Shown here piece by piece: positions 1-18,168 of a DNA stretch of 24,906 nt. Within the stretch, counting starts at the first letter, position 1; each line of letters opens with the position of its first letter. Both the position numbers and the translations under genes were made by a program. Origin of the DNA: Agmasoma carcini (nom. nud.) (Eukaryota; Microsporidia; Thelohaniidae); assembly GCA_029232285.1 (NCBI GenBank), contig JAOXFI010000044.1, positions 1 to 24,906 of the forward strand. Direction: 5' to 3'. The notes under the pieces were generated by a model. The model made no database searches, was not told where the DNA came from, and saw only the letters and a program-made list of their open reading frames with translations.

Positions 1-384
1 AGTGATATTTTTAAAAATATGGTTGTGCCAAATTCTTCAATGTATAATATTTTACAGAATATTAGAGTGTTTCTCATTAATTCAAAGTTTCATCTTGCGT
101 TTAAGAATGCCATATCAACCAGTAAATAATTTTTTTTTTCAGTTGGGGTATTTATGTTAAATTTTATTATTATAAATATAAAAACTTTGGAAAAAATCAT
201 CATGAGTTATTTTTTTATTAGATTGATTTTCATAAATTAACAATATAAAAAATAATACTTTAAAGTTACAATTTTATTTTGATATTGTATATATTATAAA
301 TCTTGTGACTCATAGTGTCAATATGTTATATAATAAAATTGATTTTTAACATGAGTAATCAAATATTCAAATATAAAGTAGAAA
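1..384. other. AT-rich stretch without a gene
   Basis: Very AT-rich DNA with stops in all frames. I see no gene, RNA gene or clear repeat. It lies beyond the C-terminal end of the transposase relic that begins near 385 and probably includes the decayed flank or terminal sequence of that element, but no inverted repeat could be matched by eye. Confidence 0.5.
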
Positions 385-1165
385 ATCAATCCTTTCGCAT
401 GAATTCAAATAAATACACTTCTAACAACTGTTTCTTACATTCATGCTTTCCCTTTATATGAGATTTGCTTTTATTTATTCCCATATGATACAATCGCTTG
501 TGTATGTACACCTATTGTCAGTTTTATAAAATTAAGATAATGGTTATCAGTCAAGAGGGTGGATCCTATACCATCAATTTTATATACGCTCTTTACTCAT
601 CAGAATATATTATTGTACTAGACAGTGCAATGCTTTGAATAATTAGAAGAAGTTTATCAGCATCTCTTCTATCCACAATTTACATATAAGCAATCTCGGT
701 TTTATATTAGTATCAATAATGTCAAACCCTCCATGTCTGGGTCTCACTTGCCCCCCTCTCTGATATTAAGTATTATTTAAAGAGAAGGATTCATGTATTT
801 TCAATATTATTCTAGGTCCACCAAAGGTTACTGAGTTCAAATCAAAATATCAGCATATTATTTTCCTAAAAAATTATATAATTGAATTTGTTCTTTCAGA
901 TACACCTAATTGCCTGCATACCCTAGTTTCTAAAACACTTTCACTCTATAATTACATATCATGAACTTATGATTGAAGAAAAAGTTTTGATTTAAAGAAA
1001 ATTTATCCGTGCCTTATTGAAACTCTTATTTTATATTTTAAGCAGGTTTTGTTTTTGGAATTTTCACATATATCCATTAATACATTATATGCACTTTGTC
1101 TAATGTATTGTTCTTCAGTTCCCTTCGCAAATCATGTTATTTTTTAATAGGCGGTTTTGTTTTAA
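385..1165 (-). mobile_element. Degenerate Merlin-type transposase, near full length
   Basis: Read on the minus strand with frameshifts and stops, this stretch gives the order of a Merlin (IS1595/ISXO2-like DDE) transposase. A zinc-ribbon tail resembling 'KIRVSIRHG' lies near 1005-1045. 'GVSERTNSII' and then 'FGGPRIILKIHES' (the usual IDES first catalytic site, D changed to H) lie near 780-835. 'RRDA' and 'STIISDE' (second catalytic D) lie near 590-690. 'GVHTQAIVSY' lies near 500-530, where the family's third acidic residue reads V. A basic C-terminus ending 'LLEVYLFEFMRK' lies near 392-430. Many stops and two substituted catalytic positions mean it cannot encode an active enzyme. Ends are approximate and no terminal inverted repeats were identified. 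Confidence 0.75.
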
Positions 1166-2284
1166 CCAGTTTATAACAGGAAGATCGATAATTGTATTAT
1201 TATATTTCTAAAATATTGATTTATAATGATATATTTTGAAAATAAAACACTAGCTAAAAATTTAACTTAAATAATAATTATCTTATTATTTTCAAATTAA
1301 ACAATCAAAATCTTATTTCACCCCAATTGAACATTATAAAACATAAATTGAGTTAAGATGAATATTGTAAAGTATATTTTTTATTTCCTATCTATTTGCA
1401 CATTTTTATAGCAATAAATAAATAAAATTTTACTAAAAAACACATTTGTAAGTTGATATGAAAGTGTTATATGTAGATGTATAATCTTAATAATTGGATA
1501 GAGTATTCTTATATAATGTAAGAATTAAAGTAGTTCTGGTAGGTACAAAATTCCTGAGATGGGTGATCAAATTATCTTTAAAATATTTAGAAATCCTATT
1601 TTTAACTTTACTAGAACAAGTAAAAAAACTTTTTGGTGTATGTAACTGCCAGAATATACGGTATATTTCATATAATATAAATATTTGTGTAAGAGTTGCC
1701 TCTAATAAACCAATTTGATAAATTTACATAAGGAAACACATTTGAAGTGAATATTAAAAAACTTAAACAAAAGAAAATAATTTAAATTAATTATATAGAG
1801 TGGTTGGTGTGATTTAAGTTGTATGAGGATTATAGAAAGAAGTTAATGTATAAATCTCAAATAAGGGTTATTAACAAAAGTATAATCTGAAGGAAGTAGT
1901 TTGATGTAATATGGTTAAATATCAAGAGAAAAATTCTTTAAATTTTATTATGGTAAATAAAAATATAAAACACGTGGTTATATTGATTTTTAATTCCATA
2001 ATTTACATACTTTGGTACAAAAGATATTTTATCATCCTAGTTTACTGGAGTACAATACTTCTTGCTATGTTTCTAGGTTTACGATGTTTTATTTTCAGTA
2101 TATAATCTTAATGTCATATATTGACTAACACAATCATCTGATTTAAATACAACATAATTATTTTTGCACATAGTTGATTTCTTGTATGAGGAATGAGTGC
2201 AAAATTATAATCGATGTAAATAATATAAATTCTATTTTTGATATATTTTGTAATTTATATTGTGGTACCCTATTAATACATCAC
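1166..2284. other. AT-rich intergenic DNA, no supported gene
   Basis: Two short open frames occur here (1494-1718 from a TTG, and 1911-2105 from an ATG). Both give hydrophobic, low-complexity translations typical of chance frames in AT-rich DNA and neither shows a domain. The stretch is probably old decayed mobile or genic DNA that is no longer recognisable. Confidence 0.5.
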
Positions 2285-2520
2285 ATAGATAATTCCTTTA
2301 TTATATAAAAGCTTCTATTTAGAAAGTTGCCCAAAAGATTTGAAAATAAACTATATGAACCCAAAGAGTGTGATGGTGACAAACATTTGGGTGAAAGAGT
2401 GCATCTCTAAGTTAACAATGTGTATAAATTGTACCTGATCAAGTTTTACATGTTGAATTAGCGTGTTCCTCCAGTAGGTTATTTCAAAAAATTTAACAAA
2501 TTACATATAGTAATATATAT
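2285..2520 (+). repeat. Dispersed repeat R1, copy 1 (gene-family relic)
   Basis: This resembles about 6135-6355 in the same orientation. At protein level on the plus strand both copies share the order IDN..., a basic run, 'NKLYE', an acidic/basic stretch, 'KHLG', RV, 'NN', 'LYLI', LN, VP. The differences are conservative (Y/F, L/M, M/V, K/R), which suggests a former coding sequence. Here the frame 'FENKLYEPKECDGDKHLGER' starts near 2340 and is broken by stops after 'RVHL' and 'YMLN'. It then runs on for more than 40 codons in a hydrophobic segment (to about 2620). I do not recognise the family. Confidence 0.6.
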
Positions 2521-3339
2521 TATACTTATTGTTATGATTTGGTATATCTCTATCATCTATAATGTTTCTGAGCATTATAAAAGTGTATATTTTTTATTTA
2601 AACCTATTCATAGTCAGTGATAAATTCCATATCTTTGATTTTTCGGAATAATTCCTTACGGTGACATTATAAATTTGAAAAAATTACAACATTTGGGTTT
2701 ATAAAAAATATGCATTTTAAGATGAATAGTTTTTTCATCAGTGTATTTTCTTCAACTGTCTCATCTCGAGATAGATATATATTAATAAAATGGCATCATC
2801 AAATACATAGCATGTTTTATTGTATTTTAACCAAAAAATGATATTATATTAGACTTAAATTTATATATTTTATCACTTTTGATTTAAATACATAGTTAAT
2901 TAGGTGTTGTTTCGAATTGCGATCTGGTAAATTTTTACAAATATTGAAAGCACTATAAAGAGTTCAGAATATCTATGTGATAAGAATAGAAAACACAATA
3001 AACCGACATTAATGGCCTAATATTTACAAAATTGATAAAATTTTTTTGTTCACTCTGAAAAGATGTTTATTATCAGTGAAATACATCCTTCATACTATCT
3101 TACTTTAATAAATTAATTTTCAATTCTTTTTATTTAATGTTTAGCTTTTAATCCTTTTAAGGTTTCTGGTGGTGCTCTTAGATCGTATAAAAATTAGAAG
3201 ATAGCTTAAATACACTTGCCCCAGTTTCTAATATATTTTTATGATCACAGCTTATAATAAATCCCTTTTTATTGATATAAAGGCTCTATATATCTCAAAA
3301 ATGATGTGAAAATATCACCTTGAAAGTTTCTAGAATCCT
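2521..3339. other. AT-rich intergenic DNA, nothing recognised
   Basis: There is no open frame of useful length and no repeat I could match elsewhere in the window. It separates repeat R1 copy 1 from the C-terminal end of the next transposase relic. Confidence 0.45.
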
Positions 3340-4255
3340 TCCAGCAATTAAAATGTAATTGAAATGTGCTGGGTGTTACTCTAATCATTTTCTTTAATTT
3401 TTTTATTTTTGAATCTGGCCATGACCTTTCAATTTATTGTTGTATGCGCTCGTGTCAAAAGGTTAATAAAGTTGTTTTGATGATTTACACTATAATGAAT
3501 ATAATTTAATTCTTTTAAATTTAAGTACGCAAGTCATTCATCAGAAAATATTATTAAACCTGATTTACAGTAAAATGAATATGATTTAATTCGTTTAATT
3601 TAAGTACACGAGTCATTCATCAGAAAATATTATTGAACCCTCTTCTACCTCTCTCTGAATTATAGGTATAAGTGTTTCTCGTTTCGTTTTTCAACATAAA
3701 AATATTTCAAATCTTTACCTTGCATCAATCCAAAAACTCAATATCCATCTATTCTGCTGCCGTAGTTTCTATTCTTATGTATCTCAATACTATTTTTTGC
3801 CTTATTTGGTAAATTGTTACGATTTAATAATCATCTCTATTTATACTTTTGCAGCCGGCGAACCTTGATTCATCTATTTGAACGGGTGATTTGATTCTCC
3901 GCATTGTTTTGAATCTATTATCAATAGACACAATTTCTAAGCTAAGTTTTCTAAAAAATCAAACCATTTACATTTTGTTTATTGTGATTCGACCCGTGTG
4001 TTCCTTCACTGACTTATATAGTGTCTCAATCGTGAAGTAAAACACAAGTTCTAAAATCTTACAAATATTTAAATTTACAAAATTAAGGTATTTTTTGACG
4101 TGTACGTCTGACAATAATAATTTTTACATTGCATGGTTTGAACTATATCCTTTTTTCGATTTTTTTCTTTGCGCATCTTTAAATTCAATCCCATATCGAA
4201 TACAAAGCCTTGTCTCTTGGGTTTCATCTAATAGACCATTTTTCTAAAATTTCTA
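3340..4255 (-). mobile_element. Degenerate Merlin-type transposase with internal duplication
   Basis: Minus-strand reading gives a nearly complete transposase skeleton. 'NGLLDET' and 'YGIEFKDAQRKKSKKGYS' (zinc-ribbon region) fall near 4130-4230. A helix-turn-helix-like stretch follows, then 'PVQIDESRFAG' (first catalytic D) near 3855-3885. 'EEGSIIFSDE' followed by 'LNELNHIHFTVN' (second catalytic D and the H..VNH motif) lies near 3560-3640. 'RAHTTIN' and 'KNKKIKEN' lie near 3390-3450. The SDE-to-VN segment is present twice in tandem (see the 80-bp repeat). Stops and frame changes are frequent, so the copy is dead. Ends are approximate. Confidence 0.75.
3481..3639. repeat. 80-bp tandem direct duplication (two units)
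   Basis: Units at 3481-3560 and 3561-3639 both begin 'tgatttaca' and contain a shared 'gtcattcatcagaaaatatt' core. They differ at roughly one position in eight. On the minus strand each unit encodes the 'IIFSDE...LNELN/LKELN...VN' catalytic segment of the surrounding transposase relic. The duplication therefore arose inside the element, and its divergence shows it is not recent. Confidence 0.85.
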
Positions 4256-4452
4256 AAGTGGGTTTTAAACTTCTTATTATCTTGTAAAACACCTTTGCTA
4301 GCATAATAAGGAATAAAATATTTAAAAATAAATGTTTATAATAAAGAAAATATGTTCGAATGAATTATTTATCAAGTATTTATATAATTGAAACATGTAT
4401 TTGTATTATATAAAATTTTTTAATCATTTTTATAAAAAATAATAATTTTTTT

Positions 4453-4455
4453 CCC
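4453..4455 (+). promoter_or_regulatory. CCC motif abutting the start codon
   Basis: A CCC triplet directly precedes the ATG at 4456 after a T-run. Short C-runs just upstream of start codons are a reported microsporidian start/promoter signal, and this one supports the choice of start. The function is inferred from position only. Confidence 0.45.
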
Positions 4456-5910
4456 ATGAAAAATATGAATTTAATCTTATCAGTAGGTGCTGCTTTATCT
4501 GTTTTAAGTTTATTTTTATATTTAAAAGGCAGAGTGAATGAGCAAGGTGGTTCAAATACTTCTAAAGGGTTGCCAGGAAGTGAATTTGGTGTTATATCGA
4601 CGTTTTACACTCAGAGTAACATATTCCAGATTCGTGAAAACGTTCATCAGAATTATATGAATCAGGAAGACAAAAATGGAAATGATTTTTTTAGTGAAAT
4701 GGCAAAAATTCTTACTGATGGATTAAAGCAAATTGGTAATAGCAATTTAAATAAGAAAAACATGTATAGGTTTGTTAAATGTACAATTATTGAGTTGTTT
4801 GAAAGAAATTTATACAAATTTAAGAAAATTCTTCTATTTGAAGATTTTTTTAAAAAAAATATCACAAAATATTTAAAATTTTTGTATAAATTCTTCGCCG
4901 GTTTATCAAATGACAAGATGAGCTTGTTTAACCAATTTTTCAAAAGTTTTAATGATTTTGATCATAAAAATATTAACTCTGTTCTATCCAAAATACTAGA
5001 AATTAAAAATCGTCAAAATTATGAAGATTTTAGTATTTTATATACAATTTTAAAGAATAAAAATGTGAAAATATTACGAGAATTTGATTTAGAAAATGAA
5101 CTAAACACGTTTAAAAGTTTATGTAATAAGTCAGAATCGATTGAAGACTTTAATCAAAAGATGAAAATTTATAAGAATGATTTTATAGCTGAGATTTTTA
5201 ATAATGGTTTTATTCATGATTTCTTAAATATTTTTTTAAATTGTTATTTAACTTTATTAAGAGAGTTGAATATTGTAAAAGCGTGTTATTATAGTCCAAG
5301 TGATAAAGAATTGAATAAGTTTGAAAAGTTTTTTAAGCAATTTAAGGGAGAGGCTTTAAAGCCCTACGATTTAATATTGAAATCGTTAAAAAATTGTGAT
5401 GAACCTGATTTAGCTCAAAACTTTATAAATTCTAATATATTTGTAAATTATCTTATTTATATGGATCAATTAAGTCTAAGGGATAAGCATTTGTGCTTAA
5501 GATATATTTTGTACTCTACCTATATTTCAGATAATCATTTGGTATTTATTCATGTTGAATTAGCCATGATATTGAATTCATTGTTTACAGAATCTGAAGT
5601 TCAAGCTAATAATAAAATTGATACTCTTTTTAGAAAAGGAATTTATAATTATATTTATGATAAAGAAATTTTATCTTGTTATAATTATTTCAATAATAAT
5701 GTTGTAAATTCTAAAAAGGATTTAGCTAAGGTGAGAGACACAATTAATAAAGGTGAATTTGTTTTAAGTAAAAGTTTGATGAGTATCAATATTATAGAAT
5801 ACTTCATTGACAATTATAGTTTGATATTACCACCATCATTTATAAAGAAAAATGATTTCATTAATAAATATAAAGAAAATGTTGAAAAATTTCAGAATCA
5901 AAAGCTTTAA
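4456..5910 (+). CDS. Hypothetical N-terminally membrane-anchored or secreted protein
   Basis: This is a 484-residue protein that I do not recognise. Residues about 5-23 form one hydrophobic segment after a short basic start, so it is either a signal peptide or an N-terminal anchor with the rest outside the cytosol. A Gly/Ser-rich linker (to about residue 45) follows. The remainder looks like a long, predominantly helical Lys/Asn/Phe/Ile-rich domain with few cysteines and no visible catalytic motif. The start is well supported: CCC abuts the ATG and the 5' side is very AT-rich. The only other frame here is an antisense shadow. It stands alone between two copies of repeat R1 and between transposase relics. 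That setting is common for lineage-specific secreted or surface proteins in microsporidia, which is an inference. Confidence 0.8.
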   Translation: MKNMNLILSVGAALSVLSLFLYLKGRVNEQGGSNTSKGLPGSEFGVISTFYTQSNIFQIRENVHQNYMNQEDKNGNDFFSEMAKILTDGLKQIGNSNLNKKNMYRFVKCTIIELFERNLYKFKKILLFEDFFKKNITKYLKFLYKFFAGLSNDKMSLFNQFFKSFNDFDHKNINSVLSKILEIKNRQNYEDFSILYTILKNKNVKILREFDLENELNTFKSLCNKSESIEDFNQKMKIYKNDFIAEIFNNGFIHDFLNIFLNCYLTLLRELNIVKACYYSPSDKELNKFEKFFKQFKGEALKPYDLILKSLKNCDEPDLAQNFINSNIFVNYLIYMDQLSLRDKHLCLRYILYSTYISDNHLVFIHVELAMILNSLFTESEVQANNKIDTLFRKGIYNYIYDKEILSCYNYFNNNVVNSKKDLAKVRDTINKGEFVLSKSLMSINIIEYFIDNYSLILPPSFIKKNDFINKYKENVEKFQNQKL

Positions 5911-5932
5911 TAAATTTATTTTATATTATAAG

Positions 5933-5996
5933 AAGTGTTAATAGGAAGTGTTGATATGAAGTGTCAATAGGAAGTATTAATAGGAACTATTCAACG
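5933..5996. repeat. 13-bp minisatellite
   Basis: Four consecutive 13-bp units (5933, 5946, 5959, 5972) have consensus 'aagtgttaatagg', followed by a partial, diverged fifth. The array begins 23 bases after the stop codon of the 484-residue gene, so it would fall in the 3' untranslated region of that transcript. Confidence 0.85.
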
Positions 5997-6134
5997 TTTT
6001 TAAGGGATCAACCACATAAAGATTAAAAAACTTTTTAGAACAATAATAGTTATTGAAAATTTGGTCAAAATCACGATAAAGGGATTTAAATTGCAACAAA
6101 CATAATATTATGGTAGTCCAATGAATCAATAATT

Positions 6135-6355
6135 GATAATCTCTTAAATATATTTAACCTTTTATTAAAAATTTACCAAAGGCTTTGACAAACAAATTAT
6201 ATGAGCACAGAGAGCGTGATAGTACCAAACATTTGGGCAATAGAGTGTATCACCTTAATAATATGTATTGATTATACTTGATTAACTATTATCTGCTTAA
6301 TCAAAATGTTCCGCAACAAGTTACTTCAATATTATTTTTAATAATTATATTATCA
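6135..6355 (+). repeat. Dispersed repeat R1, copy 2 (gene-family relic)
   Basis: This is the second copy of the repeat at about 2285-2520, in the same orientation. The plus-strand reading has 'NKLYEHRERDSTKHLGNRVY', 'HLNNMY', 'LYLINYYLLN' and 'NVP', aligning residue by residue with copy 1. A frameshift before 'NKLYE' and a stop in 'NMY*LYL' show it is not functional. The two copies bracket a transposase relic and the 484-residue gene. The family is unknown. Confidence 0.6.
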
Positions 6356-6579
6356 AGAATGAAGCATCTAGAAAACTATAAAAAATAATATAAAAAATTA
6401 TCAAAAATTTTTTATATTCAACAATAAGCAACCCAACTTAATTTAGAGTAAAACAAAATATGGGTCAACTGGATAAATTTCATTTTTAAAATATAATAAT
6501 TAATTTATTATTATTTTAATGTTTTATACTCTTTATAAGATCATAACTTTAACATATTTTATCAAATTTCACTACTCTC

Positions 6580-7040
6580 CTGTTTCTTATATCAATTTTT
6601 AAACTCGGCTTAACATTCTCAATATTATTAGTGTGTTCACCTCCTTCATTTCTAAACCCATTATTATGATTTATAATACTGTGTCTACAATAACAGCTTT
6701 GGGATATGAAGGATACCTATCATTTTTTACAAGTGTACCTTCTTTGATGTTGTTCTTAATAAATGTTTTAAAGTCTTGAATGCTTTTATCTTGGAATACA
6801 TCCAATTTAACCTCTTTTGTATGTTTACAAATCACACCAATAATTCATTTTCTACTTCATATTTCAGTCTCCATAGTTGTGGGGTTATATATAGTTATTT
6901 CTCCGGCAGTAAACAGTCTCATCGATTTGAAAAAATTTCACTGGCCTCTGATTTTTTTTCTTACACCAACTATGTCTCCAATACTATCAATAATTATATT
7001 TTTTAATTGTGACGAGGCTGACCAATTTGGTGTGTTTTGA
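6580..7040 (-). mobile_element. Degenerate Merlin-type transposase (QIDETV subfamily)
   Basis: Minus-strand reading gives 'NTPNWSASSQLKN', then 'KFFQIDETVYCRRN' (first catalytic D, near 6900-6940). 'IIGVICKHTKEVKLDVFQDK' and 'FKTFIKNNIKEGTLVKNDRY' (second catalytic D) lie near 6700-6830. 'GFRNEGGEHTNNIEN' (third catalytic E retained) lies near 6610-6660. The order and spacing match Merlin/IS1595 transposases, and the motif style matches the relic at about 14825-15660 more closely than the others. Frame changes and stops remain, so it is inactive. Sequence upstream to about 7250 may be its decayed N-terminus. Confidence 0.75.
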
Positions 7041-7424
7041 GAGTATAAATGGACTAAAGTATTTTTAATCTAGTAAATGTTACATTAAGTACTTGATTTT
7101 TTGGTGCTTTCAGAACACTTTAAAATCAACCTTTTAAATACCTAATTGATATATTTATCGTTAAATGCTTTTTGTACATATTTTTCCTATATAAGAATTC
7201 CTCTCTTTATGTTATATTTAAAATAAACGAAAGTGTTTTTCTCCTGTGTTGATAAGAATTCTATTAGTATAAAACTCATAAATTAATAAAATTTCAAAAT
7301 TATCAACATAATAAGAATAAAATTAAAAGCCATGGCTTATGTTTCATTTTTCAAAAATATATCAATATTTTAGTAATGTAATAATATTTTTACTTTTCGA
7401 AGACAGTATTCTGGTCATAAACTG
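7041..7424. other. Decayed DNA between head-to-head transposase relics
   Basis: No gene. It lies between the N-terminal sides of a minus-strand and a plus-strand transposase relic, so it probably consists of their eroded 5' parts. A 69-codon minus-strand frame reaching into this stretch (7362-7571) runs antisense to the neighbouring relic and has no family features. Confidence 0.4.
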
Positions 7425-8125
7425 GTTAAAGTATAATAATTTTTGAAAAAGATGTGAACAAGGCAATGAGTTGGACAAAGTGTAGTAGATGAATTGTTGG
7501 TTATATGTGGAAATATCATCACAAACCCAGTTTAAAATATATATAAAAGATTTCATTGAAGCACGGAACAATTTTCATCAATTCAAAACCCCGCTTCAAT
7601 CATAGATTTCTGCCATGTACTTATAGAGTGAGCATGTGAATATGAAAGAACTTTGATTAGTTATATAAAAAATTGGGTATTTTATATTAACCAGTAACTC
7701 TTAGTGGCCCTGTCTTAATATTACAAATTGATGGTATTGCTTTTCATAAAAGATAAAATATAACAGAAAGTAAATAAGGCCTATAAACTCTTTTTTGGTA
7801 TTGTCGATACTAGAATAAAAACGTGAATGGTTATATAAATTGTGGATAGAAGATATGCTGATAATCTTCTTCCAATCATTAAAACTATTACACTATTGGG
7901 TTCAGTAATTATTTCTGATAAATAGAGCGAGTGTAAGAATATTATTGGTCTATGATACACTCAAGGGCGGTCAACCATTCTCTTAATTATATAGAGCCAA
8001 CAACGGTTGTTCATACACAGGCAATCAAATCATATTATAATAAATGGGAGTTGCACGTAAAGAGAATGCATGACTGTAAAGGAATGGTTGTTAGATTGTA
8101 TTTATTGGCAGGTTTAGTTTTCTAC
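7425..8125 (+). mobile_element. Degenerate Merlin-type transposase
   Basis: The plus-strand reading, with stops and shifts, includes 'MWKYHHKPSLKYI' and 'ISLKHGTIFINSK' (zinc-ribbon region, near 7510-7585). 'LQIDGIAF' at 7720-7745 is the first catalytic site with E replaced by G. 'FGIVDTR' lies near 7795-7815, and 'VDRRYADNLLPIIKTI' near 7840-7890. 'SVIISDK' near 7900-7925 is the second site. 'YTGNQ/TQAIKSYYNKWELHV' near 8010-8060 has K at the expected third acidic position. 'KRMHDCKG' follows. It resembles the 385-1165 relic closely ('VDRRDADKLLPII', 'TQAI.SY'), so the two probably belong to one subfamily. It is inactive. Confidence 0.75.
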
Positions 8126-8592
8126 TAACACATTTGAAAGTTCGATTGAGAAATTGGTCTTTTGTGTGGCATCTTTATAGTATAACTCGCATATGATTTA
8201 TAATATTTAAATAAAATTGCGACGTTAAGCTTTTTTGTATTGTTGAATTATAAAAATGTTAAACCAAGAAGAATATATTATCAATAAAGATATTGAAAAA
8301 TATTTATTGTTTTCATATTTATAATAAATTTAAAAATAGTCTAATTGAACATTATTTTTCTACAAGAAAATCTAACTAACTGATAAATTTGGCTGTGATT
8401 TTTAAATAAATCAATATCATTTTATGTTGATACTTTTTTATCATCCTGTAATGTTGTAATTAGCCCAATTGTATATAATTTAGTTAATAATCTGTACAAT
8501 TCTCGTTGTGATGGCCTTGTAGTAAATCTTAGAATTGATCAAAACTAAATTATACTTATCTATAAAAATTACAATACATTAACAGTAAGATT
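8126..8592. other. AT-rich intergenic DNA, nothing recognised
   Basis: The 3' flank of the preceding transposase relic. There is no open frame of note and no repeat recognised apart from AT-rich tracts. Confidence 0.4.
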
Positions 8593-8970
8593 CAAAGGGA
8601 AAAAACAGATGATGGGAATACCAATCATACACTCATAATATTTTGACAGAAGGCTAAAAGCAGAACGTCACAACTTCTTAGATGGTAAAATTTTAAAGAA
8701 ATTTGCCTTGGGGTGTGTTGCAACTGTGTTAGTTCTTTACACATACTGGCCGGTTTATATCTTCTAAACCTTGAGGTGGTATTCTCTGCCAAATGATAAA
8801 TTTTTATATCTGTTGATCACAGCAAACTAGTTTCACAGAGTAAACAAAGTTATCTGGTATCCCCCCACGTCTTTGCCTTATCTCCTGATAATACCAAACT
8901 TGCTATGGGTCGTATTGATTGTTGTTTTCTAACGTTTCTACTCTGCACCATGCAAGGATCTCGATTCATT
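8593..8970. repeat. Dispersed repeat R2, copy 1
   Basis: Diverged direct repeat of about 11900-12265. Shared landmarks in order are 'aaaacagat', 'catacact', a 'cttagat/cttagatgg' block, 'tttatatcttc', 'gagtaaacaaagttatctgg' against 'gagtgaacaaggttatccg', 'tatcccc', and a final 'tactctgca'. On the minus strand both copies can be read as protein with conservative changes ('ITLFTL', 'GREY' against 'GREV'), suggesting a former coding sequence. Stops are frequent here. GC content is clearly above that of the surroundings (25 of 60 in 8701-8760). I do not recognise the encoded family. Confidence 0.65.
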
Positions 8971-9303
8971 GCTAAACATCTTAAATTGATAACAAATATA
9001 AATAAAATACGCAGATCTAAATTGCTTGATAGAATATTTAAATATTTTGTTAAATTATTAAAATTTGGTTATTAAAGAATTTTTATACTTTGGTTAATAT
9101 CATAAAATCAAATTATTAAAGTTGATAATCATATGTAAGAGCATTATAACACAAATTAACAAAAAAATAAATGATATTTTGATTATTTTTAATATAAAAT
9201 CAATGCCTGTTATTAAACAAATTTGTAAAGGCTATAAAAATATGATTAAGAAAATAATTCAATATTAAAAATGTTAAATAATATAAATAAACGAATTTAA
9301 TCA
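8971..9303. other. AT-rich downstream region of the 330-residue gene
   Basis: Extremely AT-rich, with no reading frame. It is the 3' side of the minus-strand gene ending at 9304. Confidence 0.5.
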
Positions 9304-10296
9304 TTATGAAGTTTGAAATATCCAACTTAAAAATCCACCTCCTGTTTTTTTCTCGTTTTCCTTGATTTTTTTATCGTTAAAGTCTTCATTGACTACTTTT
9401 TTATTATTTTCAATAATTTTTTGAGTGTCTGTAGCTTTTTGTTCAACTTCTAATGTTGATTTTTGAAGATCCTCACATGATTTTAATGGCGAGTTGTTGC
9501 TGTCGAGTGATGTTTGAACATCTTGTTCAAGTTGTGGAATCTCTCCAGATTGATCGTATTCGTTTATTTGAACATTTTCATTCGAGGTTGGTTGTGGCTT
9601 AGTATTATCAGATGGTTCAGGCAAATGATCTGCTTCGGGCAAAGGGTGTACATCTTCATATGATTGGCGTGTATTATCCCCTTGAACAGCTTCATCTAAG
9701 GTTGGAAGTGATTTAACATTGTCAGATGTCTCAGGCAAATGGTCTGCTTCAGGATTAGGGTGTACATCTTCATATGATTGGCGTGTATTATCCCCTTGAA
9801 CAGCTTCTTCCGACGTTAATACTATATTAGTATGTTCAGATGATATCTCAGACAAATTTTCTGCGTCAGACTGAGGTTGAACTTCTTCATATGATTGACG
9901 TGTATTATCCCCTTGAACAGGCTCATCAGTATTTTCAGGTGAGCAATGTACTTCTTGGTTAGGGTGAAATTCTGTTGAGTTAAACTTAGAATTAACCATC
10001 AAAGTTCCTTGTACATTGTCTTTATCCTGAATGTTTAATGTTTGAGAGGCATCATCTAAACGTGAATCAGGTTCTTTAGATGTACGTTGTGGTTCTAAAT
10101 CTCTCTTAAACCGCCTTGGTGTTCTTATAACGACCCTTTCCTCAGAATTATTGGTTTTTGGTTGTGTTGAATAACTAAATACAAGAAAGATACCTACAGC
10201 AGTACCAAATACTAAAAGACCTGTTGTTATACTTAACATATTACCTAATTTCATTGTAAAAAAATTTTTTATCATATTTATACTATTTGCTGTCAT
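9304..10296 (-). CDS. Single-pass membrane protein with about 39-residue repeats
   Basis: This is a 330-residue protein with no recognised domain. Residues about 20-42 form one strong transmembrane segment. A basic patch follows (RRFKR near 61-65). Residues 126-240 hold three near-identical repeats of 38-39 residues, each starting with VQGDNTRQSYE(D/E)V, with weaker traces on both sides. The C-terminal part is a charged Lys/Glu/Asn region ending in an amphipathic 'GGGFLSWIFQ'. The in-frame ATG at 10296 is used; internal ATGs at residues 8, 15 and 20 would still leave the membrane segment. No CCC motif is seen near the start. It lies in tandem with the gene at 10731-11315, which has the same plan (N-terminal anchor, repeats, acidic region). 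A surface-exposed or secretory-pathway protein is likely but inferred. Confidence 0.85.
   Translation of the reverse strand: MTANSINMIKNFFTMKLGNMLSITTGLLVFGTAVGIFLVFSYSTQPKTNNSEERVVIRTPRRFKRDLEPQRTSKEPDSRLDDASQTLNIQDKDNVQGTLMVNSKFNSTEFHPNQEVHCSPENTDEPVQGDNTRQSYEEVQPQSDAENLSEISSEHTNIVLTSEEAVQGDNTRQSYEDVHPNPEADHLPETSDNVKSLPTLDEAVQGDNTRQSYEDVHPLPEADHLPEPSDNTKPQPTSNENVQINEYDQSGEIPQLEQDVQTSLDSNNSPLKSCEDLQKSTLEVEQKATDTQKIIENNKKVVNEDFNDKKIKENEKKTGGGFLSWIFQTS
9577..9921 (-). repeat. Three coding tandem repeats (114-117 bp units)
   Basis: These encode residues 126-164, 165-202 and 203-240 of the membrane protein. The 'ttccccttgaaca'-type block at the start of each unit is nearly invariant at DNA level on the plus strand, while unit ends have diverged. 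Such arrays change copy number easily, so length variation between strains is expected. Confidence 0.9.
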
Positions 10297-10730
10297 CTTT
10301 CAATTAGAAGTAAAGGTATTTGATGGAATATTTAGAATCTAATAATTTAATATAAAAGGTTTTTAGATATTAAAATCATAAAAATAATTATTTTGACATT
10401 TATGATTTATTAGTTAAAAAAATAATATTAAGTAAAAGTTTATTTATAGATAAATCAAAATAATTTTGATATGTTTAGATTTCACTTTTTTGTAATAAAG
10501 AATGATTATAAATCGTTGTTTTATTGGTTGATGATTACGTATAATCTAGATATATGTATAAAATAATGATATTATGACAATGTTTGTTATATTTTTACTT
10601 AAAAATGGTATTTATATATTAGTAATAAGAAAAAATATATTTTAAAGTAAATTTTATTACAAATTAAGTCATAGCTAATATATAATATTATTACTTTATA
10701 GGAATACAATTTTAAATTAAAATTTATTTA
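10297..10730. other. AT-rich intergenic DNA between two minus-strand genes
   Basis: Contains the upstream region of the 330-residue gene and the downstream region of the 194-residue gene. No frame, repeat or clear promoter motif was seen. Confidence 0.5.
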
Positions 10731-11315
10731 TTAATTAGGACCAATAATATAACGTAAGGGATTTAAATAGCTTCGCTCTCCTGTATTTATCTCACCTTCT
10801 TCTTCTTCTTCTTCTTCATCTTCTTCATCTTCTTCATCTTCTTCATCTATAAATTCATATTCTTCGTCGTCTTCTTCATCATCAACTGATGGTTTTTCCT
10901 TATCTGAAGGTTTGCCATTTTTATTTTGTTTTACTTGTGTCTCACTGGGAGTTTGAACAGGTGGATTTTTATTACTAGGAGGATTCCCTTGGCCTTGCTG
11001 TTGGACCTCATCGGAGGGTGTCGAACCAGGTGTGACAATTGGTTGACCACTTGGTGGTGCAGAAGGATTCCCTTGGCCTTGCTGTTGGCCTTCATCGGAG
11101 GGTGTCGAACCAGGTGTGACAATTGGTTGACCACTTGGTGGTTCAGAAGGATTCCCTTGGCCTTGCTCTTGATCGCCAACAGGGGATGTAACGATGGCTT
11201 CCCCACTTGATAGATTTGATGATGTATCATCATCTTTTGTACTATAAATTAGAGCACAAACTACTATAAATATTAATATTGAAATGATTAATGTATGTTT
11301 CATAGAACTTTCCAT
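10731..11315 (-). CDS. Single-pass membrane protein with Pro/Gln repeats and acidic tail
   Basis: I choose the ATG at 11315, giving 194 residues. The open frame extends 21 bases further only through a TTG, and a CCCC run sits one base before this ATG. Residues about 6-26 are a transmembrane segment or signal anchor. Residues 51-106 are two near-identical 28-residue repeats (QGQGNPS.PPSGQPIVTPGS...), with partial copies before and after. Residues about 144-173 are almost entirely Asp/Glu. The C-terminus is a short uncharged 'LNPLRYIIGPN'. There is no recognised domain. The architecture parallels the neighbouring 330-residue protein, so they may be diverged relatives or act together. An exposed, disordered, possibly Thr/Ser-glycosylated stalk is an inference from composition. 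Confidence 0.85.
   Translation of the reverse strand: MESSMKHTLIISILIFIVVCALIYSTKDDDTSSNLSSGEAIVTSPVGDQEQGQGNPSEPPSGQPIVTPGSTPSDEGQQQGQGNPSAPPSGQPIVTPGSTPSDEVQQQGQGNPPSNKNPPVQTPSETQVKQNKNGKPSDKEKPSVDDEEDDEEYEFIDEEDEEDEEDEEEEEEEGEINTGERSYLNPLRYIIGPN
10998..11165 (-). repeat. Two 84-bp coding tandem repeats
   Basis: Two 84-bp units are almost identical in DNA, encoding the 28-residue Gly/Gln/Pro/Ser repeats. Traces of a third lie on each side. High DNA identity implies recent duplication or gene conversion. Confidence 0.9.
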
Positions 11316-11316
11316 T

Positions 11317-11320
11317 GGGG
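11317..11320 (-). promoter_or_regulatory. CCCC run one base before the start codon
   Basis: On the minus strand the sequence reads CCCC-A-ATG. It matches the C-run-before-ATG pattern seen at 4453-4455 and decides the start of the acidic membrane protein at 11315. Confidence 0.45.
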
Positions 11321-11899
11321 TATTCCTGATTTTCAATATTTATAGCTGTACCTGTCAAAATATTTTAAATAAAAATATCAACTTAAATTATAAATTTTTC
11401 TGAAAATAAAGAAACTATGAAGTTTCTATGTAAAAAAAATATAAATTAAAGGAGTGGTGACTTAAAGGTGTTTATTCTATAAATTATATTGTTAGAAATT
11501 AAAAATTATTGGTCAATTTAAATAAGGAGATGTTGTAATGAAAGATACATAAAATTTTACAAAATTATTTTTTATCAATGTTTATTGTAACGCTTACATA
11601 TCTTAATAATTATTGATATATAATATAAGTATTTCTTTACATTATAAAGTGATTTTATGTTATGCTTTAACACTATAAAAATTATTAAATATTTTATATT
11701 TAATAAAAGGTTTATTTATTCAATATGCTTGCTCAGGCAAAAGTGTGAAAAAAGAAAAGCACAAAGTAGTATCGATTGGAAACCTATCCGCTAATATTCG
11801 CCTTTTTTACAAGGAATCTTAGTTATCAATAAACTTACCTTAGAAGAAAAGCCGAACCAGCATTAAAAACTCCTAAATCAAACAAAATAATAAAATATA
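11321..11899. other. AT-rich DNA with a possible short relic
   Basis: There is no supported gene. A segment around 11780-11815 ('cgctaatattcgcctttttt') resembles one near 18635-18680, and both can be read as 'IR.FY...'. The match is too short to name. Confidence 0.35.
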
Positions 11900-12265
11900 G
11901 AAGGGATGAAAACAGATATCAATGAACATACACTATTCGTGTTTTGTAAAAGGCAATAGAAAAAATTGTTTGTCGTTCTACCTTAGATAGTGACAGTAAG
12001 ACATGAACCATACTATAGGATGCGGTTGTAGCTGGGCTTGGAGCCATTACGCACACTATCTGGCTTATATCTTCAGAAAGTGGCACTTCCCTGCCAATGA
12101 AGAAGAGGTGTTTGTCTATAACCGAACCAAACCAGTTTTCCAGAGTGAACAAGGTTATCCGTATCCCCACGGCCATGCTTTATCCCCTGGCAGACCTTGA
12201 CCTGTTATAGTCCAACTAGTCATTGTTTCCAACATTTACTCTGCATCACGTGGAGGCCTGGACTA
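11900..12265. repeat. Dispersed repeat R2, copy 2 (GC-rich, less decayed)
   Basis: Second copy of the repeat at about 8593-8970, same orientation, 3.3 kb away. Within 12001-12180 I count 84 G/C in 180 bases (47 percent), roughly twice the surrounding level. The minus strand keeps a frame of 85 codons (12176-11919) that aligns to copy 1 with conservative changes. A plus-strand frame of 65 codons also exists but is less consistent between copies. The high GC and open frame suggest a younger or differently biased sequence, perhaps a mobile element fragment. Family not recognised. Confidence 0.6.
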
Positions 12266-12278
12266 TCGCAGAGTAAAT
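12234..12278. repeat. 11-bp perfect inverted repeat (potential hairpin)
   Basis: 'atttactctgc' at 12234-12244 and its exact reverse complement at 12268-12278 enclose a 23-base loop. It lies at the right end of repeat R2 copy 2 and 60 bases before the proteasome gene start. It could be the decayed end of the element or a structural signal; neither is shown. Confidence 0.7.
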
Positions 12279-12337
12279 ATTTTATCAATTATGAAAATTC
12301 TTTGATTTAAAATTTTACAAACAATAAAAATTTATCC

Positions 12338-12940
12338 ATGTCTTTTGAATCATCAAATGCAATGTTTAGACCTGATGGAAGACTTAGTCAGGTGGAGTAT
12401 GCTCAAAAATCTAGTGATTTCAGCACCAGCATTGTTTTAAATAAAACAGAGAATGGTGTTTATATTAGTTATGATAACAAATCACCTAACAACCTTATCA
12501 TATCACCTAAGAGAATAATCAAATTTTTAAATTTCTATGCTTGCTTCTCGGGTCTTAGCACTGATTCTCAAATCATTATAAGTAAACTTAATGAAATATG
12601 TCATAATTTTAAACTTAACAAACAAAGAGACATTCCTTTAAAGACCGTGGCTAGAACTATTGGTAAATACATGCAATCATTCTCAGTAGATCCTGATTCA
12701 AGGCCTTTTGGTGTTAGAATTGTATTAATAAGTAAAGATATATTAGTTGTAGAGACTGATGGTAATGTTGTTGAGTATTCTCGTTTAGCTATTGGGTTTA
12801 ATTCTTCTAAAATTAATGAAGATCTTGAGAGTAGCGTTATGGAGCCAAAAGAAGCTTTGCTAAAGCATGTTCAGAGTGATGAAAAGAAGATAAAAAATTT
12901 TTTAATTTCAAATGATTTATATATGAGTGAGATTGAATAA
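12338..12940 (+). CDS. 20S proteasome alpha-type subunit
   Basis: This is a 200-residue alpha-ring subunit of the 20S proteasome, the core protease for ubiquitinated proteins in cytosol and nucleus. The family signature is clear: 'FRPDGRLSQVEYAQK' at residues 10-24, corresponding to the usual F(S/x)P(D/E)GR(L)xQVEYA helix that gates the ring. 'ACFSGLSTDSQ' (68-78) matches the (A/S)GLTAD(A/S) strand. 'DSRPFGVRIVLI' (120-131) matches the RPFGV motif. The IPLK...Y..S segment most resembles alpha7, and the RPFGV context also fits alpha5, so I leave the subtype open. It is short for the family (usually 230-260); the N-terminal extension and C-terminal tail are reduced. The ATG is preceded by 'tttatcc'. 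It stands alone between repeat R2 copy 2 and transposase relics. Confidence 0.93.
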   Translation: MSFESSNAMFRPDGRLSQVEYAQKSSDFSTSIVLNKTENGVYISYDNKSPNNLIISPKRIIKFLNFYACFSGLSTDSQIIISKLNEICHNFKLNKQRDIPLKTVARTIGKYMQSFSVDPDSRPFGVRIVLISKDILVVETDGNVVEYSRLAIGFNSSKINEDLESSVMEPKEALLKHVQSDEKKIKNFLISNDLYMSEIE

Positions 12941-13049
12941 TAAATTTGTTTCTTTTATAGGAATATATAATAGTATAAAGTAATTAACGTTATGTGTGTG
13001 TTTGAGTAGTAAATGTATTAATGATTTACAAATATAAATATTAATAGAT

Positions 13050-13390
13050 TAAGCTGTGTGCACATGTGGAATTTTTGGTAAAAAGCAATTAGTATACATT
13101 TCGAATCATTGTTGTTAAGGATTGTGGAATGTGCAACCTTTCAATGGGAGATAATCTATTTGTTCTAACTGTAATGAACTTTCATCTTTGAATCATTCAA
13201 ATTACGAAGCAGTGTATGCACTGGGAAGACAAAAACTGAAATGATGAACCATAATTTTTCTGTTATTTTTAGTAACTTCTTAGGAAAATGAACAGTTCAT
13301 CGAATCTTTTATATCTTTTGCTGGTCTGGTATTTTCCCGTATATGAAAATATAGTGTAAATTTGCGTTAAATCATTGTATAACATATAAA
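13050..13390 (+). mobile_element. Probable N-terminal fragment of a Merlin-type transposase
   Basis: A plus-strand reading gives 'KDCGMCNL', then after a shift 'CSNCNELSSLNHSNYEAVYA', which fits the zinc-ribbon region of IS1595/Merlin transposases (C-x2-C, then ...Y..AW). A hydrophobic 'EQFIESFISFAGLVF' follows, where the family has its '..ILxFIYLW' helix. The catalytic core is not found in this orientation downstream, so this would be a fragment. The support is thinner than for the other relics. Confidence 0.45.
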
Positions 13391-13799
13391 ATTATCAATA
13401 AAAACTATATATAAATACAGAAAAATTAAATAAAATTACAATTTACAATATTTTCTTTTAAAGCCACCAAGTAAAACGATTCTAACAACCCATCAAAAAT
13501 TTAAGTATGAATACTATCAATTGGATCAACAAAATTAAAATTTAATGAAATACTTAAATGGTGAAGAATTAACCTCTCTTGGTGATGGTAACGACGTTCT
13601 TTTCACTATTTTAAAAGATTTAGATAATTTTACTTATCGCATGGCAGTAGAGCATAACAAGAACAAACCATCATAAGGTATACATAAGATTAATAAATCA
13701 ATTTATATCCGAATGAGTCAAGACAATATGATTAAATGTAAAAATTTAAATTGGTTATATTCATATAACTATGTAATTATTTAATATATTACGGTTTCT
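13391..13799. other. Intergenic DNA with a 43-codon open frame
   Basis: This stretch includes a short ATG-to-stop frame at 13545-13676, listed separately. Otherwise nothing is recognised. Confidence 0.4.
13545..13676 (+). pseudogene. Short open frame, possible gene relic
   Basis: Forty-three codons from ATG to TAA encode a balanced, non-repetitive peptide that includes 'GEELTSLGDGNDVLFTILKD' and ends 'MAVEHNKNKPS'. Its composition is more protein-like than the chance frames around it, which are dominated by Ile/Lys/Asn/Phe. A stop lies just upstream in the same frame. No family is recognised; it may be a fragment of a displaced gene or a small real gene. Confidence 0.3.
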
Positions 13800-14050
13800 T
13801 CAATAAACATCTTGTAAAATGTGTAATAGAGTTGGTGCACAAATATCATCCACCAGTTTAACAAAGTACTTTGAAAGTGATGTAGATGTATTCGAAATAC
13901 CAACCACATGCCTAGCTTCATCACCAACTCTCCCGAATCTTATTCTGCTTATACTTGAACATGGATTCATCAATTTGATAAATTTCACCCAACCAACTTA
14001 AAATTATTGGAAATTTATCAAAATATAATTTTATTCATTCTCGTTTCATT
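13800..14050 (-). mobile_element. Fragment of a Merlin-type transposase core
   Basis: The minus-strand reading has 'GEIYQIDESMFKYK' (first catalytic D, near 13945-13990). After a frameshift comes 'GRVGDEARHVVGISNTSTSL', then 'VKLVDDICAPTLLHIL', matching the family's GR..., W.FGI.DT(S)T and L(V)..R...TLLPII blocks. The second and third catalytic blocks were not located below 13800. A 62-codon minus-strand frame (13988-13800) covers the second half only, in a different frame from the IDES motif. Confidence 0.65.
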
Positions 14051-14824
14051 TGATAAACTTAGACATATTAACTCTCGAAGTGTGATAGATTTTGGTATAT
14101 TCTCTAATACTTAAAACATAATATAATTATTTGCTTAGGGGTATTTTGATATCACAATAATGTTTGCGCATATGCTTATTTTTTAAAATAAACTAGTTTT
14201 AGTATTAATAAATGCTATATTATAAATAACGCTTATTCTTCACTTCTCTAAGAGGAGTATACAACCAAATAAATGACATAATAAAAAAATACCTTTCCTT
14301 ATTAGTATATTTATAATCGTAGTATTATTGTTTTATGTTATACCTACATATTTTCAAAATTAAACATGCCAATTTTTTGGTATTTTTTACTCTTAGAAAA
14401 ATGATGCAATTTATAAGATTTATTCACTTTTGTAAAAATGTTATAACTCATCATTCTTTAATTTAGTACTGTTACTGTGTCAGACACATGAAATATTATA
14501 CTTACACGTGAAATATAAAAGTGGTTAATAAAATTAAACCAATAGAAAATTTATATATTTTTAGATGTGAGCCAAGTGTTCTTCCAGAAATCTATACATT
14601 AGATAACGTTAACAAATATTAATCAATGAATTTTCAAACCTTATTTTATTGAAGAATAATTATATTAGGTTTGGAAAAAGACTTCATAATATTCAAGTCT
14701 TACTTTTTACAAATTACGTGTTTATATCTATCAACATTATCTAGTGCATAGATTTTTGGAACCATGATTAGTTAAAATCTAAAATATTCGGTAATACTGT
14801 ATAAGACACCAGTGATTAATTACA
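14051..14824. other. AT-rich intergenic DNA, nothing recognised
   Basis: There is no open frame or matched repeat. A small pair, 'acatgaaatatta' and 'acgtgaaatataa' (about 14485 and 14504), is the only local repetition seen. The left part may be the eroded N-terminal region of the minus-strand relic at 13800-14050. Confidence 0.4.
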
Positions 14825-15660
14825 AATTTTTACCAAGTCTTATGCAGAAAATCACATGTTTCTACCTGTGGATCTAGAAGAATTGATCAATACACTTATG
14901 AATTAATTAATTATGAAAAACCACTATTTATATTTTGAGAATTACTAGCAAAATTAAGTATCTCTGCCAAGAGAACAATTGTCTAGGCAAGTTTAAGACA
15001 TTAAGATCAAAAAACTTTTAATGAGATGTTTTTAAAGGCATGGAATTAACGGTTTTTTTAATCCTAATTTATCACAGATAAAAATTAAAAAAAATTGTAT
15101 TATCCGAATATTTATATGCATATAAAACACCAAATTAGTCAACTATAGCTCAATTAAATATGTATGAAATATTTTTTATTGATGCAATTGTAGATTTTGC
15201 TGGTAAAAGAGAGAAAGTTGGAGGAATGGGTAGGTCTATTCAAATTGATGAAACAGTATGTTGTCGTAGAAAGCTTATTTATATCCATACAACCATGAAA
15301 CCGAAGTTAAGGGTAATGAATGGATTATAGGAGCAATATAATAAGCCACAAAAGAAATAAAGTCTGTAGTTTTGCCAGATAGAACAATTGACACTTTTGA
15401 AATATTTATAAAAATAATATAAATGAACTGATGGTTTTCCATATTATCCTAAGCTGTATGCATAGTATAATTAATCATAGTAAGGGGTTTAGGAATGATA
15501 AAAGAAACTATACAAATACTATAGAAAGTATTTGCTCGGGTTGAAAATTGAACTTAAATCAAGAAGAGGTGTATCTTATAATACTTTTGTAAGGGAATAT
15601 GAAATTTTATCGGATTCTTATACAGTTTTCTTAAATTTTCTATTTGGTAAATTTTATTAA
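14825..15660 (+). mobile_element. Degenerate Merlin-type transposase, best-preserved core
   Basis: The plus-strand core is only lightly broken. 'REKVGGMGRSIQIDETVCCR' (first catalytic D, 15209-15270) is followed by 'KGNEWIIGAI' (near 15310-15335), 'TKEIKSVVLPDRTIDTFEIF' (near 15352-15408), 'INHSKGFRND' (near 15470-15500), 'YTNTIES' (third catalytic E retained, 15509-15529), and 'LKIELKSRRGVSYNTFVREY' (near 15540-15600). A stop follows GAI, frameshifts occur, and the segment carrying the second catalytic D is not visible in frame. It shares the QIDETV-CRR style with the relic at 6580-7040. The N-terminal part (14825-15180) is weakly recognisable. Confidence 0.8.
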
Positions 15661-16649
15661 CCCCTTTTATACTTAAAATACAGATGAAAAATTTGTGTAC
15701 CTTATTCGGCAACACTCTTCCATCATCTAAACAAATTCCAGTTTTTATAGAATTTAAAATAGTGATATATAAATATACTAATATTTCTTTACTATTTTCT
15801 ATTATAAAATTGTATTTATCTTAAATCAATTTCAAAATTTATGTTTGATAGAGAAATCTGAACACGGAGCTTTCAGTTTTTTAGAAATTTACCACATAAT
15901 TGTATTTTTTTTATCCTTGATGTATTGTTTTAAAAAATATTATTTGATATATAATTCGACCCATAGTTATAGACATAAATTATATTTTTATATTTCTAGA
16001 TTTATCGTATTATAATTTATATTTCTAGATTTGTCGTATTATATGTTTTTCATTACCCAAACTCATTTTATAAATTGCTGTAATGAGTATTTATATGTCA
16101 TCTGAAAATCAAAGGTTATCGATATGACTTTTATTTAGATATTATACTTTCAAAATCTAACACTACGTCTGTTCTCGGTTTAAAAATTTTGAACTTTTAT
16201 ATTCTCCGCTATTTTTACTGTGTTTAACTTATATACCTTTGTAATCACACTTGGTTCAAATCTAAAATTTTAAAATTTTAAACTACTTTATACTTGATAT
16301 GTAAGTATAATATTTCATGTAGCCAACTCGACATCAAAATCATTAGAAGAGTTTATAGAAATTCAACAAATAAAATTTGAAAATAATTTTTTTAAAATCT
16401 TTTTGATATTTACCAGCAAATAAAATACAAATGAGATTTCAATATACATAATGCTAGACTTATTATTTTTAAGTATTTATATTTTGAATCCTCCAAGATC
16501 TCTCCATTGTTTTGTTGTGTTAGAGAAAGTCAACATATTTTGACTGTGTAATTCAGATATACTGTCATAAGATTTTAGACAATTGATTAAAAAGGAATAT
16601 AAATTTATTTATAAAAATATCCACATTGTCCAATTTAGAACCACAACTA
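15661..16649. other. AT-rich intergenic DNA with one small tandem repeat
   Basis: No gene is supported. It holds the 29-bp tandem duplication at 15987-16044. The rest shows stops in all frames and no match to the repeats named elsewhere in the window. Confidence 0.45.
15987..16044. repeat. 29-bp tandem duplication (two units)
   Basis: 'tttatatttctagattt' followed by 'a/gtcgtattat' occurs at 15987-16015 and again at 16016-16044, with few differences between units. It lies in noncoding DNA. Confidence 0.85.
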
Positions 16650-17330
16650 AAGGTTGATATCAAATCTATCCACATCATTATGAGACAACCCATAAGAGTG
16701 AATCAGGACAATACATTTAAGTATTCAGAGTAATGCTGAATCATCTTCAATATCTCTCTGAAGTATATGTATTAATGTTAATATGTCTCTTCTTTCAATA
16801 TAAAATAGCAACAGTCACACCTTCAACTGAACCATCCAACCTATTCCCACAGTTTCCATTATTGTCTGATATAACACTGTTTTTAATTATTAGGTGGTCT
16901 ATCACCTTAAAACATACTATTTTTACTTTCCTTATAAGTTTAGATTCGTTAATTTGAAGGGGTGTTCCACGGTGCTTGACAATTTATATAGCCTTGAAAT
17001 TATTAAATAACAGAATACACTAAAAATTCTAAACGATTCAAAGATGTATCACTAATATAGCTGATAAATTGATATATTATTATATATGATACCTCCATTG
17101 TGAAATAAAATACCAATTCCAATATTTGAAAAATTATTAATGTGCTACCCGTCTTTTTATTCAGATTTGTAAAATTGAGAATAATAAATTTAATAATTTC
17201 AATGTTAACAGAATTTCACATTTTCTCTTTACTTATATAAACTCTTTCACACAGCATTGGATTTTTTTTACAATTTCAGTTAATAATGCTCTCTTCTCAA
17301 TAATTCAACCGCCTTAAACCCATCTCCTAA
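16650..17330 (-). mobile_element. Strongly decayed Merlin-type transposase
   Basis: The minus-strand reading contains 'KHRGTPLQINESKL' (near 16935-16980), aligning with the family's GGPG..VQIDES motif with D changed to N. Upstream is 'FKYWNWYFISQWR' (near 17085-17125), comparable to the helix before the catalytic core. Downstream motifs are no longer clear. It shares the '(P)xQI(D/N)ES' style and flanking pattern with the relic at 3340-4255. A 74-codon plus-strand frame at 16733-16957 is its antisense shadow. Confidence 0.5.
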
Positions 17331-17926: not shown

Positions 17927-18168
17927 ATGAATGATATCACAAGGTTATCATTATATGTTTATTAACTATCTATAAATATCATTGGTTTGTGATTAAGTCA
18001 AAAATGTTTAATTAAAATAATCACTTACCTTAATCAATATATAATGTTTTTTTAAAAATACCATTTTTGACAAAAATATTTATGCATCAGTAATTTTGTT
18101 TTAGAAATCAATCAAATATGAAACAAAGTTTTAAAAATAATATTTAAGAAATACTAACCAAACAAACA

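Follow-up and report, generated by a model that had tools for sequence, protein, structure and literature searches.

Decayed Merlin transposons and a SINE-like retroposon with a candidate HDV-like ribozyme in a gene-poor region of a microsporidian genome

We analysed a stretch of 24,906 nucleotides, hereafter the window, at the start of contig C2 (JAOXFI010000044.1) of the Agmasoma carcini assembly, which comprises 4.26 Mb in 69 contigs. Its gene-poor first 18 kb are very probably a mixed transposon graveyard, in which decayed Merlin elements of at least two lineages lie together with a short interspersed nuclear element (SINE)-like retroposon headed by a hepatitis delta virus (HDV)-like ribozyme. 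An initial annotation had placed eight relics of Merlin/IS1595-type transposases here, none of them intact. We recovered Merlin at seven of the eight places, six clearly and one weakly, using profiles and tblastn against reversed controls, and the family, strands and approximate coordinates given for these seven were right. The remaining place, 13050–13390 on the plus strand, gave no match on that strand with database proteins, genome copies, profiles, Pfam scans of read-through translations or tblastn of the unassigned DNA against genome loci.

Merlin relics in the window

The relics, and an inverted repeat around one of them, are as follows.

377–1228, minus strand: Merlin relic 1, lineage B (linB 53.4 bits, linAll 25.7 bits; tblastn with P0011, E 2e-19)
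3287–4246, minus strand: Merlin relic 2, lineage B (PF12762, E 5.9e-5; linB 31.1, 20.4 and 19.0 bits; L044, E 2.7e-21; repeat family D10)
6522–7282, minus strand: Merlin relic 3, lineage A (linA 78.7 bits; tblastn with P0003, E 5e-27; own-genome search)
7336–8104, plus strand: Merlin relic 4, lineage B (linB 38.7 bits, linAll 26.5 bits; P0011, E 5e-18)
13453–14091, minus strand: Merlin relic 5, lineage B (L019, E 1.6e-14; linB 17.0 + 12.0 bits, linAll 14.6 bits)
14950–15642, plus strand: Merlin relic 6, lineage A (linA 52.3 + 26.1 bits; P0001, E 2e-12; L053, E 6e-17)
16398–16962, minus strand: Merlin relic 7, weakly matched (genome copies L044, E 2e-5, and L048, E 2e-4 to 3e-4; best control 0.011)
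14511–14553: left arm of an imperfect inverted repeat bracketing relic 6 (43 bp, 88%; repeat search)
15632–15674: right arm of the same repeat (repeat search)

Query proteins were gathered in two database searches: a read-through translation from one genome copy yielded 8 relatives, and an uninterrupted frame of 199 residues in another copy yielded 113. All 121 were compared with the window by tblastn, with the reversed window as control. The same two sequences were searched with 106 pieces of other Merlin copies from the same genome, which had more reach than the database proteins, and scored with profiles of two lineages (linA and linB) and with linAll. Matches to the 121 proteins reached E 5e-27 in the window, and the best match per relic for relics 1–6 lay between 3e-6 and 5e-27. 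The profiles placed relics at 377–1056, 3375–4246, 6683–7282 and 13803–14091 on the minus strand and at 7785–8104 and 15061–15571 on the plus strand. It could be argued that such matches are chance alignments, given that the DNA has a guanine-plus-cytosine content of 22–33%, that stops were bridged, and that the Pfam profile alone barely registers most relics. This is highly improbable: the reversed window gave no better than E 0.04 with the database proteins and 0.011 with the genome-copy pieces, and the profiles scored 12–79 bits on the relics against at most 4.4 bits on the reversed window. In addition, the acidic motifs QIDET/SDE/IES are conserved, in order and on one strand. For six places chance is refuted, and the translated search that the initial annotation had suggested gave significant matches clear of the controls at six of its places. 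Its other suggestion, the Pfam profile for DDE_Tnp_IS1595 (PF12762), found a single match at E <= 1e-3 (3366–3686, E 5.9e-5), which at 24.6 bits stays below the cut-off of 27, and gave matches at E <= 1 in three of nine read-through pieces. The PF12762 test alone is insensitive for these decayed relics.

Every one of relics 1–7 is broken by stops and/or scattered over several frames. The catalytic DDE triad (Asp, Asp, Glu) can be read piecemeal in relics 2, 3 and 6 and is changed in relics 1, 4 and 7. Relic 2 shows QIDES, SDE and IERSW, but spread across frames with stops, and holds a 79-bp tandem duplication (3515–3639). QIDET, ND and IEN can be read in pieces in relic 3, the low end of which (6522) was set by the own-genome search with P0003. 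Relic 4 is a related copy of relic 1 in the opposite orientation, the two being joined by inverted repeats I1 (77%) and I12 (90%); genome copy L052 extended both at their N-terminal ends (1079–1228, E 3e-4, and 7336–7602, E 5e-10) and gave no match in the reversed-sequence control. Relic 1 carries IHES and IVS, with the first Asp changed to His, the second catalytic Asp kept and the Glu changed to Val, and a weak similarity to L045 continues downstream (256–375, E 0.002). The motif IKS of relic 4 has Lys in place of the catalytic Glu. Relic 5 is present and longer than the 13800–14050 first proposed, as its C-terminal part (13453–13590) was matched by tblastn at 13504–13581 (E 2e-4) and 13453–13575 (E 5e-4); its catalytic triad is only partly covered. 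In relic 6, QIDET, TDG and IES are legible in different frames, and the 43-bp inverted repeat around it may be a terminal inverted repeat. Relic 7 corresponds to a place annotated as 16650–17330; genome copies weakly indicate 16398–16962 instead, through spans at 16728–16962 (E 2e-5) and 16398–16484 (E 2e-4 to 3e-4), while database proteins reach only E 0.068 and no profile match of at least 9 bits was found there. Its motif INES has Asn for the first Asp. Separately, a short coding-looking stretch at 14537–14601 on the plus strand (FRCEPSVLPEIYTL-like) matches L050 (E 7e-5) and L012 (E 0.003).

Some observations count against the picture of a Merlin graveyard. No 8–9 bp target-site duplication was recognisable by eye at relic 6, the relic inspected for it, and stray window matches about as good as the controls, which we did not count, occurred at 11667–11816 on the plus strand (E 0.011, database proteins) and, with the genome-copy pieces, at 1565–1660 on the minus strand (E 0.008) and 16313–16402 on the plus strand (E 0.007).

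Searches of the whole genome gave 60 matches with PF12762, 149 with a lineage-B fragment (from the best 150 of 216 candidates scored), 79 with P0003 and 127 with P0010 (from the best 128 of 238 candidates scored). When merged within 1 kb, the 415 rows formed 180 clusters on 59 of the 69 contigs. At this sensitivity no intact Merlin was found among the 415 genome matches. Because several relics keep acidic catalytic motifs, some of them might be domesticated or still expressed transposase-derived genes. We find this scarcely credible, in view of the several frames and/or stops in each relic and the longest stop-free match listed, which covers 145 query residues (on C43), about half of a transposase of ~300 residues; the statement that none is intact holds. 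More probably, Merlin elements inserted by cut-and-paste, then lost function, and would since have decayed through point changes and small insertions and deletions.

Merlin is established in microsporidia: in the available portions of the two sources, 120 families are given for Anncaliia (PMC4202319), and PMC8101967 reports copy counts for Nosema, Pseudoloma and Hepatospora. Going by the same portions, the Merlin superfamily, eukaryotic IS1016/IS1595-like DDE elements known from Anncaliia algerae and Nosema, shares with the relics the DDE_Tnp_IS1595-type transposase, the motifs QIDE(T/S), SD and IES, a microsporidian host and the presence of many lineages (PMC4202319, PMC8101967). The copies seen here differ in that all are broken and in that terminal repeats, which in known Merlin begin with GG, and 8–9 bp duplications are not resolved; membership rests on the transposase.

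According to the initial annotation, most of the apparent junk is Merlin, which also explains the low gene density. The coding share of positions 1–18000 is 22%, with nine open frames counted as coding. Merlin makes up 40.4% of the 14,040 non-coding bases, a figure that counts the weak relic and the inverted-repeat arms and takes relic 1 to 1190, and the retroposon described below a further 6.9%. Roughly half of the non-coding bases are unassigned; 'most' is therefore too strong. The window contains four of the Merlin clusters from the genome-wide searches where 1.03 would be expected (Poisson P 0.02, a post hoc value for a window that was not chosen blindly). As this density is above the genome mean, Merlin contributes to the low gene density and is not the whole explanation. 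Decayed copies such as these are missed by ordinary gene calling and largely by the Pfam profile too; a family-specific profile reveals that Merlin fills a large part of the DNA that seems empty in this small microsporidian genome.

The SINE-like retroposon

Two further stretches of the non-coding DNA belong to a different repeat.

11698–12273, minus strand: SINE-like retroposon, full length, older subfamily (51 own-genome DNA matches; nhmmer E 2.7e-172, with a model that includes this copy)
11686–11697: target-site duplication on its 3' side (12 bp, identical to 12274–12285)
12274–12285: target-site duplication on its 5' side
about 12204–12273, minus strand: 5'-terminal region of this copy, putatively a decayed HDV-like ribozyme
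8582–8971, minus strand: second, older, incomplete copy (nhmmer E 6e-32, profile positions 6–412 of 596)

Judged from their sequence, these are copies of a non-Merlin element, a SINE-like retroposon of ~575 bp. An own-genome DNA search with 11700–12290 gave 51 matches (with the best 40 of 144 candidates scored). Similarity among copies stops near 11701 and 12274 despite 200 bases of flank in the query, and the flanks diverge; a profile of the element run on the window marked 11702–12273 and 8582–8971, both on the minus strand. The full-length copy ends in a short TTA-type tail and has TAAATATTTTAT, an exact 12-bp duplication, on both sides. Across the genome, copies measure ~575–620 bp between their ends and carry TTA/ATT-type, (ATT)n tails. 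A target duplication score of at least 9 was reached by 7 of 21 full-length copies and by 11 of 420 mismatched pairs (means 8.3 and 4.9), a count that left out the repeated views L056, L061, L063 and L077 and copies short of either model end. The duplications vary in length, from about 8 to 18 bp, and together with an A/T-rich simple tail such variable duplications are what marks a SINE. A head of the tRNA, 5S or 7SL type had no Rfam match inside the copies scanned, the tRNA at L080 and the U6 at L081 lying outside them; hence the label 'SINE-like'.

A younger subfamily lies elsewhere in the genome. One younger copy is matched over its first 147 nt at eight places, with 87–100% identity, and each of these eight also matches the 3' region of that copy. 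In all four younger copies fetched, the first base of the element is immediately preceded by a duplication, of 15, 18, 15 and 11 nt respectively (the last 14 with one mismatch). Swapped pairs gave 2–4 nt; strictly anchored, the measure gives 3 for the fourth true pair, owing to its mismatch.

The HDV-like 5' end and a possible source of reverse transcriptase

HDV-like ribozymes fold as a nested double pseudoknot of helices P1–P4 with a catalytic C in J4/2. The first ~70 nt of the element can pair in what we take to be this scheme, as P1 (7 bp), P2 (6 bp), P3 (3 bp) and P4 (5 bp). The Rfam model RF02682 (HDV-F-prausnitzii) matched at the exact 5' end of the element in 4 of 20 repeat-copy loci, namely L068, L070 and L079 (25–28 bits) and L075 (35.3 bits, E 0.0041 in 34 kb). 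The alignment to model positions 1–74 takes in P1, P3 (its L3 loop nearly identical), P4 and the joining segment GGCUAA, and the drz-agam models score the element lower than this F. prausnitzii model does. In a short rescan, L068, which was picked after its first match, gave E 0.0011, and RF00094, RF01787 and RF01788 matched the same stretch weakly (E 0.38–2.8). In the whole genome RF02682 had 27 matches at E <= 10, the best with E 1.2e-4. Eight of the 14 with E < 0.03 coincided with the 5' ends of copies that the DNA search from the window had returned, five at copies found via a query from one match, and one was unplaced. The four genome matches that were fetched as younger copies have a longer P4 loop, and in an all-Rfam rescan they matched RF02682 at E 1.1e-4 to 6.9e-4, which is not independent, as RF02682 had picked them. 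Over the 20 copies, the pairs of P1, P1.1, P2, P3 and P4 form in 85% of cells versus 33–47% for slid versions.

These data are consistent with a ribozyme, and several others weigh against it. RF02682 had no match in 16 of the 20 loci and none in the window, whose copies are decayed. No match reached the gathering score of 44, the best having 35.3 bits; the 5' end is therefore filed as HDV-like only and not as a member of RF02682, from which it also differs in its retroposon context. At E <= 10 the model also matches in 8 of 14 control genomes, in none of them above the cut-off. Covariation on the 20 copies did not exceed that of shuffles, which is expected for dead copies and lends no independent support, and a pseudoknot-free fold of one ribozyme-like copy was no better than shuffles (z -0.11). 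One P1 strand is absent in 5 of the 20 aligned copies (L065, L066, L073, L074 and L081), removed by a common 10-nt deletion between two GTGGT repeats; either this deletion recurred, or a subfamily or individual copies spread without an intact ribozyme. A hammerhead reading of the same 5' end, weighed by eye, was rejected.

It is also possible that the repeat is a solo long terminal repeat (LTR) or a miniature inverted-repeat transposable element (MITE) and that the ribozyme-like module is coincidental. The element is short, and MITEs are reported in Nosema in the available part of PMC4405373. We consider this explanation unlikely, given the variability of the duplications and the (ATT)n tail, the fact that no terminal inverted repeat was seen by eye, and the agreement of four HDV-type models, three of them weakly, on one stretch of L068.

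We think it likely that this microsporidian SINE-like family uses a 5' HDV-like self-cleaving ribozyme to obtain exact RNA ends from host read-through transcripts, and that a more recently active subfamily exists elsewhere in the genome. Because the target duplications end at the first base of the element, we infer a candidate self-cleavage site just before that base. Cutting there, the ribozyme would give the RNA a precise 5' end, and the reverse transcriptase of a long interspersed nuclear element (LINE) might then insert this RNA by target-primed reverse transcription. According to the parts of PMC4035085 and PMC3774820 that were available, the non-LTR retrotransposons R2 and L1Tc and the SINE-like NARTc/RIME/SIDER elements of trypanosomatids have an HDV-like ribozyme at the very 5' end with cleavage expected just upstream, and have target-site duplications and short non-autonomous forms. 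The retroposon differs from R2 and the trypanosomatid elements in its microsporidian host, its dispersed target sites and the failure to find a related LINE.

LINE-like reverse-transcriptase remains lie on C48 and C59. L083, with an open reverse-transcriptase frame of 333 residues, L085 and L088 were labelled by eye as such remains, and their reverse transcriptases are candidates for the machinery of the retroposon. A further point against the proposed mechanism is that no LINE sharing the 3' end of the retroposon was found in L083–L091, which are incomplete loci, or in a search with the 3' region. The retroposon might instead derive from a longer autonomous LINE by internal deletion and not be an independent SINE, as the trypanosomatid SINE-like elements with HDV-like ribozymes are truncated LINEs in the portion of PMC4035085 that was available. 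We regard this as possible and somewhat doubtful: the incomplete loci L083–L091 share no sequence with the retroposon apart from a separate copy beside L087, and all eight matches to the 3' region of the younger copy are the eight short copies themselves.

If a ribozyme-headed SINE-like family is correct, HDV-like ribozymes extend to microsporidia, a promoterless SINE has a simple way to define its 5' end, and the retroposon matters more than the Merlin relics; the younger copies are directly testable for cleavage. Within a literature coverage that leaves most subscription journals outside, no paper on HDV-like ribozymes in microsporidia was found, nor, judged by titles among part of the matches, a report of a microsporidian SINE; 'SINE' does not occur as a whole word in PMC7313128.

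Two other kinds of element were seen among the genome loci. L084 (3–2186) and L086 (1–1746) each hold a long open frame that matches RVT_1, with 728 and 582 residues inside the loci, presumably of a Ty3/gypsy-type polyprotein. Two neighbouring open frames at 2250–3191 on the minus strand of L013 seem to resemble a Tc1/mariner-type transposase.

Genes and other repeats of the window

Pfam matches were obtained in four of the nine open frames scanned, the other five having none.

12338–12940: proteasome subunit (Pfam match)
19010–19348: NF-YA (Pfam match)
19349–20239, minus strand: Cdh1-like WD40 protein (Pfam match)
20896–24654: SNF2 helicase (Pfam match)

The host was correctly recognised as a microsporidian, in that the best named relatives of the Cdh1/Cdc20-like protein are from Glugoides, Pancytospora, Vittaforma and Enteropsectra; this ranking covers the listed relatives with names, ten top matches carrying none. 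ARAGORN and Rfam scans of the window gave no match. Pfam made no assignment in 1201–3299 (six frames), in 5911–6551, 14096–14950 and 12945–13453 (plus-strand frames) or in 15676–16397 (minus-strand frames), and a DUF7045 match (E 0.034) in the scan of these leftover regions was set aside.

Within the unassigned DNA, an old repeat pairs 2319–2405 with 6165–6251 at 72% identity, with no Pfam assignment in the frames scanned around it, and parts of 1900–3000 match C28, C6, C52 and C30 of the same genome at 69–84%. The open frames at 9304–10296 and 10731–11315, both on the minus strand, have no Pfam match; each shows an apparent N-terminal hydrophobic stretch, noted by eye, and internal repeats (units of 114 bp and 84 bp), and their products are possibly secreted or surface proteins. 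Short tandem repeats and minisatellite-like ones occupy the intergenic positions 18750–18970, 20497–20693 and 24745–24888.

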